A stretch of 64,000 bases of DNA, from NCBI RefSeq assembly GCF_000820505.1, contig NZ_JWJD01000001.1:583923-647922 (forward strand), given 5' to 3'. Below, in pieces: positions 45,677 through 49,147 of this stretch (positions are counted from its first letter, which is position 1; each line of letters begins with the position of its first letter). Below the pieces are notes generated by a model. It was given only the letters and a program-made list of their open reading frames with translations. It did no database searches and had not been told where the DNA came from. The DNA comes from Geoalkalibacter ferrihydriticus DSM 17813. Its GTDB lineage: Bacteria > Desulfobacterota > Desulfuromonadia > Desulfuromonadales > Geoalkalibacteraceae. Both the position numbers and the translations under genes were made by a program.

Positions 45677-46069
45677 ATGTTTGGAAAAAAGGGTACGAAT
45701 GTGGCTACTCCACTGGAAAAAAGTGATATCAAGGCTTTTTTGGGCCCCGGCAGCCAGTTTGAAGGAAAGTTGGTTTTTACCGAGATCGTACGCCTGGATG
45801 GTGTCTTTCGCGGAGAGATCAACAGTAAGGATACCCTGATCGTTGGTCAGACCGGAGAATTGCATGCTGAAATCACCGTCGGAACATTGATTCTCAGCGG
45901 CAAACTCAAGGGCAATGTCAGTGCCACGGCCAGGGTTGAATTACGTGCTCCAGCTCAGGTTGAAGGCAACATTGCCACGCCCCTGCTCACCGTAGAAGAA
46001 GGCGTGGTTTTCAACGGCAGTCTGGAGATGCAGAAACCCGCGGCACCGGAAACCGGCAAAAAAAGCTGA
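45677..46069 (+). CDS. Bactofilin family cytoskeletal protein
   Basis: 130 residues from ATG 45677. The bactofilin (DUF583) core has the regular beta-helix pattern: DIKAFLGPGSQFEGKLVFTEIVRLDGVFRGEI, DTLIVGQTGELHAEITVGTLILSGKLKGNVSATARVELRAPAQVEGNI. Bactofilins polymerise without nucleotide; in Myxococcus they scaffold ParABS near the poles, and placement directly after parB agrees with such a role. AAAGGGA is about 12 nt upstream. A charged C-terminal tail ends in TGKKS. Confidence 0.92.
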   Translation: MFGKKGTNVATPLEKSDIKAFLGPGSQFEGKLVFTEIVRLDGVFRGEINSKDTLIVGQTGELHAEITVGTLILSGKLKGNVSATARVELRAPAQVEGNIATPLLTVEEGVVFNGSLEMQKPAAPETGKKS

Positions 46070-46090
46070 GCCTGGGGCGCGGCGCCGTCG

Positions 46091-46119
46091 TTGACTTCCA
46101 CCTTCCATTGTGGTATTGA
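46091..46119 (+). promoter_or_regulatory. Promoter of the aminotransferase leader
   Basis: TTGACT (46091-46096), 17-bp spacer, TATTGA (46114-46119). Start of transcription expected near 46126, about 260 nt ahead of the aminotransferase ATG. Confidence 0.6.
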
Positions 46120-46169
46120 CTCACATTCGGCGCAAAATGCGCCGCAGGTCATCGGAAGGCGCTACGTTC

Positions 46170-46274
46170 ATGATCCCCATGCCCCTCATTAAGGCCATAT
46201 TGCGAGCTAGAAGCGCGGCCGCCGCGGCGACCGCAGCCTCTTTCTTTGCTCTTGAGCGGCGCATGGCCCGGTGA
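46170..46274 (+). CDS. Alanine-rich 34-aa leader peptide
   Basis: ATG 46170 follows GGAAGG by 10 nt; TGA at 46272-46274. The peptide begins MIPMPLIKAILRAR and then contains SAAAAATAA before SFFALERRMAR, about 11 alanines in 34 residues. Length, position between a promoter and an intrinsic terminator, and the run of one amino acid fit a regulatory leader peptide for the downstream aminotransferase. GC-rich DNA favours Ala codons by chance, so the evidence is architectural rather than compositional. No protein family applies. Confidence 0.45.
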   Translation: MIPMPLIKAILRARSAAAAATAASFFALERRMAR

Positions 46275-46299
46275 CGCGTTTTTTCTGTTGATAAACCTG

Positions 46300-46330
46300 A
46301 AGCCATGGGCCGCTCGCTCATGGCTTTTTT
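46300..46330 (+). terminator. Intrinsic terminator ahead of the aminotransferase gene
   Basis: AAGCCATG (46300-46307) pairs with CATGGCTT (46319-46326), 11-nt loop, T-run to 46330. It lies 230 bp after bactofilin and 57 bp before the aminotransferase start. Confidence 0.75.
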
Positions 46331-46387
46331 GCGTTAATTGCCCCTGCCGCCGCAGTAGCGACCGGCCAACCTTGGGAGATATCCTCT

Positions 46388-47692
46388 ATGCGTAACAACA
46401 TCGTGCACATCGGTGCAGGCGAATTGACCTACGAAATACGCGCCATTGTTGACATTGCCGAAAAGCTCAATAAGCTCGGCATTAAGACCAATATGGAAAA
46501 TATCGGCGACCCGGTGGCCAAGGGGGAAAAGATTCCGGCCTGGATGAAAAAAATTGTTGCCGACCTGGCCATGCAGGATTGTTCTTACGGCTACTGCGCC
46601 ACCAAGGGGCTACTCGAAACGCGCCAGTTTCTTGCCGAGATGACCAATGCTCGCGGCAAGACCCAGATTACCGCAGAAGACATCATTTTTTTCAACGGAT
46701 TGGGCGATGCCATCCAGAAAGTCTACGGGCTACTACGGCGTGAGGCGCGCGTTATCGGCCCCTCCCCTACGTATTCAACCCACTCCTCGGGCGAGGCGGC
46801 TCACGCCGGACAACGCCCCGTGACCTATCGCCTGGATCCCGACAACAACTGGTATCCCGACCTCGATGATCTGCGTCTTTCGGTCAAATATAACCCCGCC
46901 ATCAGCGGCATTCTCATCATTAATCCCGACAATCCCACCGGCGCGGTCTATCCCGAGCGCATCCTCAAGGAAATCGTGGGTATTGCCAGGGAATACGACC
47001 TGTTTATCATCTGCGACGAGATCTATCACAACCTGGTCTATAACGGTGAATCGACCAAGCCGCTTTCTGATCTAATCGGCGAGGTGCCTGCCATCGCCAT
47101 GAAGGGCATCAGCAAGGAGCTGCCCTGGCCGGGATCGCGCTGTGGCTGGATCGAGGTGTACAACGCTGAACGCGATCCCATGTTTAAGCGCTATATCCAG
47201 AGTATCCTTGATTCGAAGATGGTGGAGGTCTGCTCGACCACCCTGCCCCAAAAGGCGATACCGCCTATTCTGAGCCACCCGGAATATTCCAAGTACCTGG
47301 ATTTGCGCAGGGCCCGCTACGAGCGCCACTCCAACATCGCCTACGACATCCTCAAAGAGGTGCCGGGCATTCAGGTCAATCGCACCAACGGCGCCTTTTA
47401 CATGAGCGTGGCGTTCAAGCCCGATCAGTTGACCTCTAAGCAGAGTCTACCCATCGCCAACCCCGAGGTGAAGGAGCTGGTGGAGCATCTGGTGAATCAG
47501 CCGGGAATCTCCCTCGACAAGCGCTTTGTCTATTACCTGCTGGCCGCGACAGGCATTTGCGTAGTACCGCTGTCCTCCTTCTGTACCCCGGAGAGAGGTT
47601 TTCGCATCACCCTGCTCGAGCTTGACGAAAAGGAATTTACTGCTATTTTCAGAACCATTGCGGCAACGATTACTGAGTATCTTAATTCCTGA
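46388..47692 (+). CDS. Class I PLP-dependent aminotransferase, possibly alanine-forming
   Basis: 434 residues. Fold type I aminotransferase: FFNGLGDAIQKVYGLL, GPSPTYSTHSSGEAAHAG, ILIINPDNPTGAVYPERILKEIV, FIICDEIYHNLVYNGE, PLP-binding lysine in MKGISKELPWPGSRCGWIEVYN and the carboxylate-binding Arg in GFRITLLE. The pattern fits the alanine/aspartate/aromatic group; AlaA-like alanine formation is inferred mainly from the alanine-rich leader upstream and is not proven. GGGAG lies 10-11 nt before the ATG. The gene stands alone, with gshA 57 bp further on, running the same way. Confidence 0.88.
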   Translation: MRNNIVHIGAGELTYEIRAIVDIAEKLNKLGIKTNMENIGDPVAKGEKIPAWMKKIVADLAMQDCSYGYCATKGLLETRQFLAEMTNARGKTQITAEDIIFFNGLGDAIQKVYGLLRREARVIGPSPTYSTHSSGEAAHAGQRPVTYRLDPDNNWYPDLDDLRLSVKYNPAISGILIINPDNPTGAVYPERILKEIVGIAREYDLFIICDEIYHNLVYNGESTKPLSDLIGEVPAIAMKGISKELPWPGSRCGWIEVYNAERDPMFKRYIQSILDSKMVEVCSTTLPQKAIPPILSHPEYSKYLDLRRARYERHSNIAYDILKEVPGIQVNRTNGAFYMSVAFKPDQLTSKQSLPIANPEVKELVEHLVNQPGISLDKRFVYYLLAATGICVVPLSSFCTPERGFRITLLELDEKEFTAIFRTIAATITEYLNS

Positions 47693-47749: not shown

Positions 47750-49147
47750 ATGACAACCTTGGCGAAAGAAGGTCTGGATACACCGGTCAGCGGTACAGAT
47801 GCGCTGATCGCCTACTTGGCGGCAAGTGCGCGCCCCGCTGAGCGCTGGGGCATAGGCGTTGAGTCAGAAAAGCTGGTGATTGATGCGCAAAGCGGCGAAG
47901 CCGCTGAATTTGCGCGCATCGAGGCCCTGTTGGGTCGCCTGGAGGGTCGCGCGGGCTGGTTGGGGATTCGTGAAGAAGGACGTCTGATCGCCCTGCACAG
48001 CGCGACCTCGTCCGTGACCCTGGAGCCGGGCGGCCAGTTGGAGCTTTCCGGCGAACTCTGCCCCGATATTCATTGCTGTTATGGTGATTTTGCCCGTCAC
48101 CATGAGGCGGTGGCGGCCGAGGCGGCGGACTTGGGCCTGGCGTTTCTGGGGCTCGGCACTCAGCCGTTCACACCCTTGGAGAACATCGGATGGGTGCCCA
48201 AGGACCGCTATCGCATCATGGGGCCCTACATGCGTCGCACCGGCGACCTGGGCCAGGCGATGATGAAGCAGAGCGCCGGCTTGCAGGTCAATCTTGATTT
48301 TTCCGACGAGGTCGACTGGATTGCCAAGGTACGCGTCGGCCTGTTGCTGGCACCGGTATTTTACGCTCTCTTTGCCAATTCGCCCCTGCTCGCCGGACGA
48401 CCCAGCGGCTTTCTCTCTACCCGCGGTGAAATCTGGGCGCGCACCGACCCTGAACGGACCGGGTTGTTGCCGGAGATTTTTCAGGAAGATGCCGGCTACG
48501 CCAGCTTCGTCGACTATGCCCTCGACGTGCCCATGTATTTTATCCACCGCCAGGGCCGCTATATTGCCCTGACCGCTGAGCGCCTGCCATTTCGCCGATA
48601 CCTGGAGAAAGGCTGGGGTGAGTATCGGGCTACCCTGGGGGATTGGGATCTGCATCTCTCGACGATTTTTACTGAAGTGCGCCTGCGGCCACAGATCGAG
48701 CTGCGTTCCGCCGATAGTCTGCCGCCGGTGTACACCCTGGCGGTGGCGGCTCTGGTCAAGGGGCTGTTGTATGACGCTGAATCTCTGGACGCAAGCTGGA
48801 GATTGTTGCACGCTGAACTTTATCCCCATTTGTCCGAGGTTTTTCCCGCCTCCTGGCGGGTCGGCCTGAAGGCCCCGGTGGGTCGCCGCAGCCTGGGCGA
48901 ACTCTGTCTTGATCTTCTGCAGTTGGCGCGAGAAGGTCTGGTGCGCCGCAGGGTTGCCAATCAGCGGGGATGGGATGAAACCATTTACCTCGACCCTATA
49001 GCGGAGCTGGCCGCCGAGGGGCAGACCCTGGCCGAGCGGCTCTTGGCTCGTTGGCAGGGATCGCGAGAGCAAAAAGTCAGGATTCTGCTCGATCACTGCG
49101 GCTTCGGTATGAATCCCCAACCCCCCCAAGGACGACGATCTGTGTAG
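47750..49147 (+). CDS. gshA: Glutamate-cysteine ligase, plant/alphaproteobacterial type
   Basis: 465 residues of the GCS2/EgtA superfamily. Family stretches include WGIGVESEKLVID, VTLEPGGQLELSGEL, FLGLGTQPFTPLENIGWVPKDRYRIMGPYM, MMKQSAGLQVNLDFSDEVDW and LSTIFTEVRLRPQIELRSAD. It joins glutamate and cysteine to gamma-glutamylcysteine. No glutathione synthetase is in the window, so the end product (glutathione or gamma-glutamylcysteine) is open. It converges on a gamma-glutamylcyclotransferase gene, with a bidirectional terminator between. Confidence 0.92.
   Translation: MTTLAKEGLDTPVSGTDALIAYLAASARPAERWGIGVESEKLVIDAQSGEAAEFARIEALLGRLEGRAGWLGIREEGRLIALHSATSSVTLEPGGQLELSGELCPDIHCCYGDFARHHEAVAAEAADLGLAFLGLGTQPFTPLENIGWVPKDRYRIMGPYMRRTGDLGQAMMKQSAGLQVNLDFSDEVDWIAKVRVGLLLAPVFYALFANSPLLAGRPSGFLSTRGEIWARTDPERTGLLPEIFQEDAGYASFVDYALDVPMYFIHRQGRYIALTAERLPFRRYLEKGWGEYRATLGDWDLHLSTIFTEVRLRPQIELRSADSLPPVYTLAVAALVKGLLYDAESLDASWRLLHAELYPHLSEVFPASWRVGLKAPVGRRSLGELCLDLLQLAREGLVRRRVANQRGWDETIYLDPIAELAAEGQTLAERLLARWQGSREQKVRILLDHCGFGMNPQPPQGRRSV

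Follow-up and report, generated by a model that had tools for sequence, protein, structure and literature searches.

Leader Locus

The window, that is, the whole stretch of 64,000 nt of Geoalkalibacter ferrihydriticus DSM 17813 DNA that was analysed, contains a short alanine-rich open reading frame between a bactofilin gene and a gene for a class I aminotransferase (table 1). This leader encodes the peptide MIPMPLIKAILRARSAAAAATAASFFALERRMAR, a Shine-Dalgarno-like sequence precedes it and an intrinsic terminator, GAAGCCATGGGC-CGCTC-GCTCATGGCTTT, follows it with a U run at 46325-46330 and a computed energy of -18.2 kcal/mol. A preliminary description of this DNA had named a promoter, a ribosome-binding site, a 34-codon leader, a terminator, two hexamers able to pair with each other (CATGGC, 46262-46267, and GCCATG, 46302-46307) and a class I aminotransferase gene next to them. 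The observation as a whole is confirmed, and its coordinates can be read directly in the sequence, with two reservations. First, the eight Ala in nine codons of that description are a miscount, as there are seven Ala in the eight codons 16-23, or eight in the 11 codons 13-23. The other concerns the promoter: the motif is present, but a simple promoter scan of the window did not list it. Our promoter call rests on a reading of the sequence and on the recurrence of TTGAC in relatives' leaders. Within the 200-nt region searched, TTGAC was found in 53 of the 54 leaders introduced below, and in 39 of the 54 it is accompanied by a -10-like hexamer 15-19 nt further on; no chance expectation was computed for either count. 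A 7-bp hairpin, CGGCGCA-AAA-TGCGCCG (46128-46144), also lies where the leader transcript is presumed to have its 5' end.

Table 1. Features of the leader region and the genes downstream, in window coordinates.
Feature	Coordinates	Strand	Basis or remark
Promoter TTGACT-N17-TATTGA (proposed)	46091..46119	+	Read in sequence; no mapped transcription start
TTGACT; TATTGA (spacer 17 nt)	46091-46096; 46114-46119	+	Read directly from sequence
Shine-Dalgarno-like GGAAGG of leader	46154..46159	+	Sequence
Leader ORF, Ala-rich, 34 codons + TGA	46170..46274	+	Sequence
Leader start ATG; stop TGA	46170; 46272-46274	+	
Segment 1, first leader codons	46177..46188	+	Pairs with segment 2 (46253-46266) in full-leader fold
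Conserved Arg-Ala codon pair CGA-GCT	46203..46208	+	CGA in 40/45 leaders (first-match rule)
Control codons, Ala at codons 13, 16-20, 22, 23	46206..46238	+	Sequence; Ala kept via synonymous codons
Segment 2, antiterminator strand, in last leader codons	46253..46268	+	Pairing energy, swap test, folds
Segment 3, terminator 5' arm + loop	46299..46315	+	46302-46315 pairs with 46254-46267
Segment 4, terminator 3' arm + U run	46316..46330	+	Terminator prediction, covariation
PRK06855/NF005334 class I aminotransferase (regulated gene)	46388..47692	+	NCBIfam 756 bits, cut-off 443
Glutamate-cysteine-ligase family (GCS2) gene, possible operon partner	47750..49147	+	

Conservation of the Leader

The aminotransferase was matched in all 58 genomes searched, but in one (G050) the match was to a distant paralogue alone, so that 57 loci remained, that of the window among them. 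Upstream of the gene, an alanine-rich leader frame together with a terminator was found in 54 of the 57, where acceptance required a frame within 560 nt with at least four Ala in 12 codons, its start being assigned by a Shine-Dalgarno rule. Thus, the conservation in relatives that the preliminary description had proposed as a check is borne out for both the leader frame and the pairing. Three loci (L031, L033 and L040) are without a leader, and that of a fourth (L025, counted among the 54) is degenerate. These four loci all come from one family, f18, in which the leader appears as lost or as a remnant and the aminotransferase is retained. Across the 54 leaders it is the core, ARAxxAAA, that recurs; both ends vary, as does the length (23 to 53 codons by the start-site rule). 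The window's upstream neighbour, the bactofilin gene, is found at only 6 of the 57 loci, whereas the leader remains linked to the aminotransferase.

A covariance model was built from an alignment (A1) of 36 of the 54 leaders; the 18 not used were near-duplicates or had a divergent core. At E <= 1e-6 it matched upstream of the gene at 53 of the 57 loci, the degenerate L025 leader being among those unmatched; 36 of these matches hold by construction, because those leaders built the model. At E <= 1e-5 it matched in 107 of 136 genomes of the order and in 180 of 244 sampled genomes of the class, representing 75 of 79 genera. The adjacency of match and gene was checked at the 53 loci, at five class loci and at 42 of the 80 named loci, some of them in the same genomes, and not at the rest. 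Among seven class loci inspected outside the order, five have a leader, which is absent from L067 and L075. Geoalkalibacter sp. (L087), Desulfuromusa kysingii (L119) and Geotalea sp. SG265 (L166) are among the named records that match. No match was obtained for 38 named loci, many of which are titled Desulfobulbaceae or Desulfocapsa; one of the 38, L108, bears the title Desulfuromonas. Two records with the same upstream sequence (L078 and L121; genome G416, family f107), listed as sharing no more than the phylum with the window, contain a leader with CGAGC and a GGCCATGG terminator. We rejected a multi-copy element as an explanation, as the 53 strong matches occur one per genome and the other matches listed reach at most 36.2 bits.

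Competing Helices of the Leader RNA

All 54 loci with an alanine-rich leader have a strong intrinsic terminator, and its helix covaries. In the 36 aligned sequences 95.3% of the cells are paired and 7 of 12 pairs have changed on both sides, and none of 500 shuffles scored as high for either measure. Outlying species, for example L016 and L053, retain the helix with different bases.

The GCCATG arm of the terminator was said to compete between two copies of CATGGC. It does have an alternative partner, but the alternative helix extends far beyond the hexamer, which forms only its inner portion: 13 bp with one mismatch join 46254-46267 to 46302-46315. In the window this helix reaches -28.1 kcal/mol versus -18.2 for the terminator, whereas 200 dinucleotide shuffles of the leader give a mean of -16.5 (z -4.4), and only 1 of 3000 random 61-nt stretches drawn from the window paired equally well with the terminator arm and loop. 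Taken genome by genome, the alternative helix is stronger than in shuffles at p <= 0.05 in 19 of the 54 leaders and has a z above -1 in 16, the weakest including L008, L016, L017 and L027.

The complementarity is nevertheless specific to each species. In a swap test, the binding energy between the segment from -72 to -12 relative to the arm and the arm plus loop of the same leader was compared with that of pairs swapped between species. For 43 non-redundant leaders the mean was -18.15 for own pairs versus -15.78 for swapped ones (z -6.6, reached in 0 of 20000 permutations), and for all 102 records z was -8.6. Control segments upstream gave z of +1.4 and -0.9 (43 leaders) and one downstream gave -0.5 (28 leaders); the largest control z in the redundant 102-record set was -1.6 (1047 of 20000). 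The result persisted at z -5.9 without the first 8 nt of the arm, which are conserved, so that the variable loop also matches its own leader. It should be said that the segment was chosen after the first results, the upstream controls being moved as well. An earlier segment, -45 to -2, partly missed strand 2, which in the window lies at -46 to -31, and gave z -3.8 (54 leaders), -3.5 (39) and -2.5 (43); for this reason the segment was moved. In a fixed alignment register 70.4% of antiterminator cells are paired versus 35-47% when the register is slid, but covariation in that register does not exceed shuffles, of which 66 of 500 are as high for cells paired and 111 of 500 for the covariation score. 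Covariation in both hairpins, a further check proposed in the preliminary description, is thus met by the terminator; the antiterminator passes the permutation test without a fixed-register excess.

A third helix could hold segment 2 before the antiterminator forms. Pairing of 46177-46188 with 46253-46266 appears in the folds of both 46126-46330 and 46126-46290, the latter representing the transcript before arm 3 is made. Among 35 non-redundant leaders the region from -6 to +18 of the leader start matches its own strand 2 with z -5.0 (0 of 5000), a figure that is the best of 15 windows scanned; wider start-region windows in 43 leaders give z -4.2 and -4.1. The position of segment 1 varies between species. 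An earlier candidate for segment 1, 46127-46146 (a duplex of -24.6 kcal/mol), was rejected because it folds on itself at 46128-46144, and 46177-46188 took its place. The support for the 1:2, 2:3 and 3:4 helices together amounts to the classical attenuator layout. Of the geometry claimed at the outset, the leader, terminator and antiterminator are upheld, and the helix between the start region and strand 2 is an addition to it.

Alanine Codons and the CGA Codon

The alanine run belongs to the reading frame: the leader frame has an Ala fraction of 0.31 versus 0.08 and 0.05 in the other two frames, and it is the frame highest in Ala in each of the 54 leaders. At aligned core positions Ala is constant while its codons vary, position +5 for example being GCG in 18 leaders, GCC in 11, GCA in 6 and GCT in 5. 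GCA makes up 27% of the Ala codons in leaders versus 5% in the downstream genes.

The codon before the run behaves differently. Counting the first Arg-Ala or Arg-Glu with at least two Ala in the next eight codons, we find Arg before the Ala run in 45 of the 54 leaders and CGA as its codon in 40 of the 45, whereas CGA accounts for 65 of 1324 Arg codons (4.9%) in the downstream genes. The Ala codon after this site is GCT or GCG in 39 of 44 cases, while GCC makes up 64% of downstream Ala codons. The background comes from the 54 downstream genes, one of which (L057) is split by a frameshift and partly read out of frame. Nine leaders yield no Arg by the rule, two of which (L025 and L034) do contain CGA-GCG; the other seven (L007, L008, L015, L017, L021, L032 and L042) have no Arg at the site and keep their Ala-rich cores. 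As a probe the pattern CGAGCNNNNNCGCGGC is useless by itself, with 26 matches in the genome versus 21 for a reversed control.

The codon is fixed, not the residue alone, and a purely peptide explanation of CGA is therefore insufficient. Pairing of the RNA was rejected as the cause of CGAGC conservation, as none of six regions in 46 of the 54 leaders held a consistent complementary partner (mean z -0.21 to +0.52). The fixed CGA before the Ala run is thus unexplained either by the peptide or by any RNA partner found. CGA is read by an inosine tRNA through a slow I:A wobble. We suggest, with considerable hesitation, that the CGA-Ala pair might be a built-in sensitiser, in which CGA in the P site and an Ala codon in the A site would let a small drop in Ala-tRNA be sensed. 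If so, the leader would be a codon-pair-tuned attenuator in addition to its alanine specificity; we know of no such tuning in classical attenuators.

Modelled Switching

Ribosome positions were imposed on folds of the 54 leaders. When the ribosome is held in the Ala run and arm 4 is still to be transcribed, the terminator arm is predicted to pair upstream with a mean probability of 0.73, versus 0.16 with the ribosome at the stop codon; the stalled value is the higher in 53 of 54 leaders, and in 49 of 54 it lies above the leader's own shuffles, whose mean is 0.57. Once arm 4 is present, the mean terminator probability is 0.81 in the stalled state versus 0.95 at the stop. In most species the terminator is thus still favoured at equilibrium when the ribosome is stalled, so that the switch would have to be kinetic there. 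For the window itself the model is sharper: the terminator probability is 0.00-0.03 stalled and 0.98 at the stop, and the folds give the terminator without a ribosome, the antiterminator with a stalled one and the terminator with one at the stop. With no ribosome present and arm 4 still lacking, the 1:2 helix that forms before arm 3 is predicted to give way, as the equilibrium in the window is then the antiterminator (segment 2 with 46299-46315 at 0.80, with the upstream strand at 0.02). Since 1:2 loses to 2:3 at equilibrium at this stage, any holding of segment 2 by segment 1 would likewise have to be kinetic.

The Aminotransferase and Its Neighbours

The gene downstream is a class I aminotransferase, as first described, of the PRK06855 family, whose name states no substrate. 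The closest PDB sequences are 4cvq, Escherichia coli AlaA (E 1.1e-46), and then 1xi9, the alanine aminotransferase of Pyrococcus furiosus, and these are again the first two in a fold search with a predicted model (mean pLDDT 73, eight sequences); identity to them is 26-28%. Judged by these sequence and model comparisons, the enzyme is probably an AlaA-like alanine aminotransferase, a specificity that is inferred without an assay. An unrelated specificity had been named as grounds for refuting the alanine reading. The sequence gives no such grounds, as the nearest solved relatives are alanine aminotransferases, but specificity itself is unmeasured. The same genome has two other matches to the aminotransferase, both distant (E 2.1e-13 and 1.6e-11). 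Alanine dehydrogenase is present there too, and exceeds its curated cut-off in 34 of 40 genomes searched, so that the aminotransferase need not be the sole source of alanine. A PRK06855 aminotransferase above the curated cut-off also occurs in Methanocaldococcus jannaschii, the only one of 14 control genomes to have it.

A GCS2 homologue is found in the flanks of at least 34 of the 57 loci, a lower bound because 27 loci have only about 200 nt of downstream sequence. An operon joining transamination with gamma-glutamylcysteine synthesis is possible.

Proposed Mechanism and Alternatives

Several lines of evidence suggest that the leader is, in all likelihood, a transcription attenuator of the ribosome-mediated kind, with charged tRNA-Ala as its signal and the AlaA-like aminotransferase gene as its target, although there are no expression data. 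The in-frame Ala run, the covarying terminator and the species-specific 2:3 and 1:2 complementarity are established computationally. The alanine attenuation first proposed for the locus was largely right, with the sensing of alanine itself remaining an inference. We envisage that a transcript would start near 46126, an inferred position, and that a ribosome would begin to translate the 34-codon leader. With ample Ala-tRNA it would reach the stop codon and cover segment 2, the 3:4 terminator would form and a transcript of about 205 nt would be released. With scarce Ala-tRNA it is inferred to stall in the Ala run and leave segment 2 (46253-46268) free, which could then capture 46302-46315 before arm 4 is made, and the polymerase would read through into the gene. 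If the leader were not translated at all, segment 1 (46177-46188) could hold segment 2, and the terminator would form.

The attenuator could be real without being an alanine sensor. The CGA-Ala pair, as a slow site, might instead report on the Arg tRNA that reads CGA, on a general slowdown of translation or on ribosome inhibitors. The excess of CGA over the downstream genes, the GCT or GCG after it and the absence of a partner for CGAGC in the six regions would all be compatible with this, and in the accessible part of the report on an engineered trp attenuator, a construct with two Ala codons answers several ribosome inhibitors (PMC5039519). We nonetheless regard it as unlikely, given that the seven leaders without Arg at the site retain Ala-rich cores, that several Ala codons follow CGA and that the gene is nearest to alanine aminotransferases.

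More distant from attenuation is the possibility that the leader is the gene of a small functional protein with its own terminator, which stands before the aminotransferase by chance. A Shine-Dalgarno-like site, a start, a stop and a recurring core are what such a gene would have, but only the core recurs while the ends and the length vary, the final codons match the terminator arm of their own species, and the leader accompanies a single gene, whereas the gene upstream of it in the window is not conserved there; we consider this very improbable. It is also barely credible that a terminator merely follows a chance GC-rich frame and that the alternative pairing arises from its palindromic arm. 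The near self-complementarity of the arm GGCCATGGCC makes partial pairing frequent, and shuffled leaders already reach the mean of 0.57 reported above. Against this reading stand the swap tests, which have null controls and hold without the first 8 nt of the arm, and an Ala content that is highest in the coding frame of every leader. We therefore return to the attenuator sensing charged tRNA-Ala as our preferred reading.

Comparison with Known Systems

Classical attenuators govern the trp, his, leu, ilv, thr and phe operons of enterobacteria; about six amino acids have such textbook examples. The preliminary description knew of no established alanine example, a statement that has to be narrowed: a proposed alanine leader, AlaL, has been published for Streptomyces lividans TK24, where an Ala-rich leader peptide, MNVIGRNIFATARATSSPVAAA, stands before alaS and is listed as an attenuator (PMC8079986), whereas the window leader precedes an aminotransferase gene. 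It was found in one genome by RNA-seq, the accessible part of the paper holds no mechanistic test of it, and its authors called the type previously undescribed (PMC8079986). Besides AlaL, no other natural alanine leader was found in the open-access literature, which was incompletely covered, so that the absence of others from print is not shown. The leader of L053 and the AlaL peptide (ATARATSSPVAAA) have ATARATS in common (PMC8079986), which may be a coincidence among Ala-rich peptides. The covariance model had no match in 22 alaS loci of the relatives (best E 0.39). A scan for Ala-rich frames upstream of 21 of these (L188 excluded) gave at best a frame with seven Ala in 12 codons, from the genome of the window itself (L186), and one with six, in L172; the L186 frame lies out of frame inside a longer open frame.

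A reporter engineered from trpL has two Ala codons in place of the Trp codons and detects translation inhibitors (PMC5039519). Ala codons at the control positions are common to it and our leader, as is, by inference for ours, relief of termination by stalled ribosomes, but it is man-made and, so far as the part of the paper available to us goes, not reported as an alanine sensor (PMC5039519). The leader and T-box families of Rfam share cis-acting attenuation upstream of amino-acid genes, but no Rfam family reached its gathering score anywhere in the window, and at 46050-46400 the listed matches, of which there are two (E 2.4 and 2.5), fall far below theirs.

A conserved alanine attenuator would extend the attenuation rule to an abundant amino acid, and would indicate how the PRK06855 aminotransferase is regulated and what it probably does. 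Natural variants, at least 43 of them non-redundant, provide material on how codon choice tunes ribosome stalling, and the near-constant CGA codon poses a specific, testable question. With the classical attenuators our leader shares a run of codons for one amino acid, the 1:2, 2:3 and 3:4 helices, an intrinsic terminator and, probably, an amino-acid gene downstream; unlike them, it has alanine codons, an aminotransferase as its target and a fixed CGA-Ala pair, and unlike the enterobacterial examples it comes from records titled Desulfuromonadales and Geobacteraceae. The mechanism as inferred is that of a classical attenuator, and what is new is the inferred sensing of alanine on behalf of an aminotransferase gene, the conservation across many genera and the fixed CGA codon.
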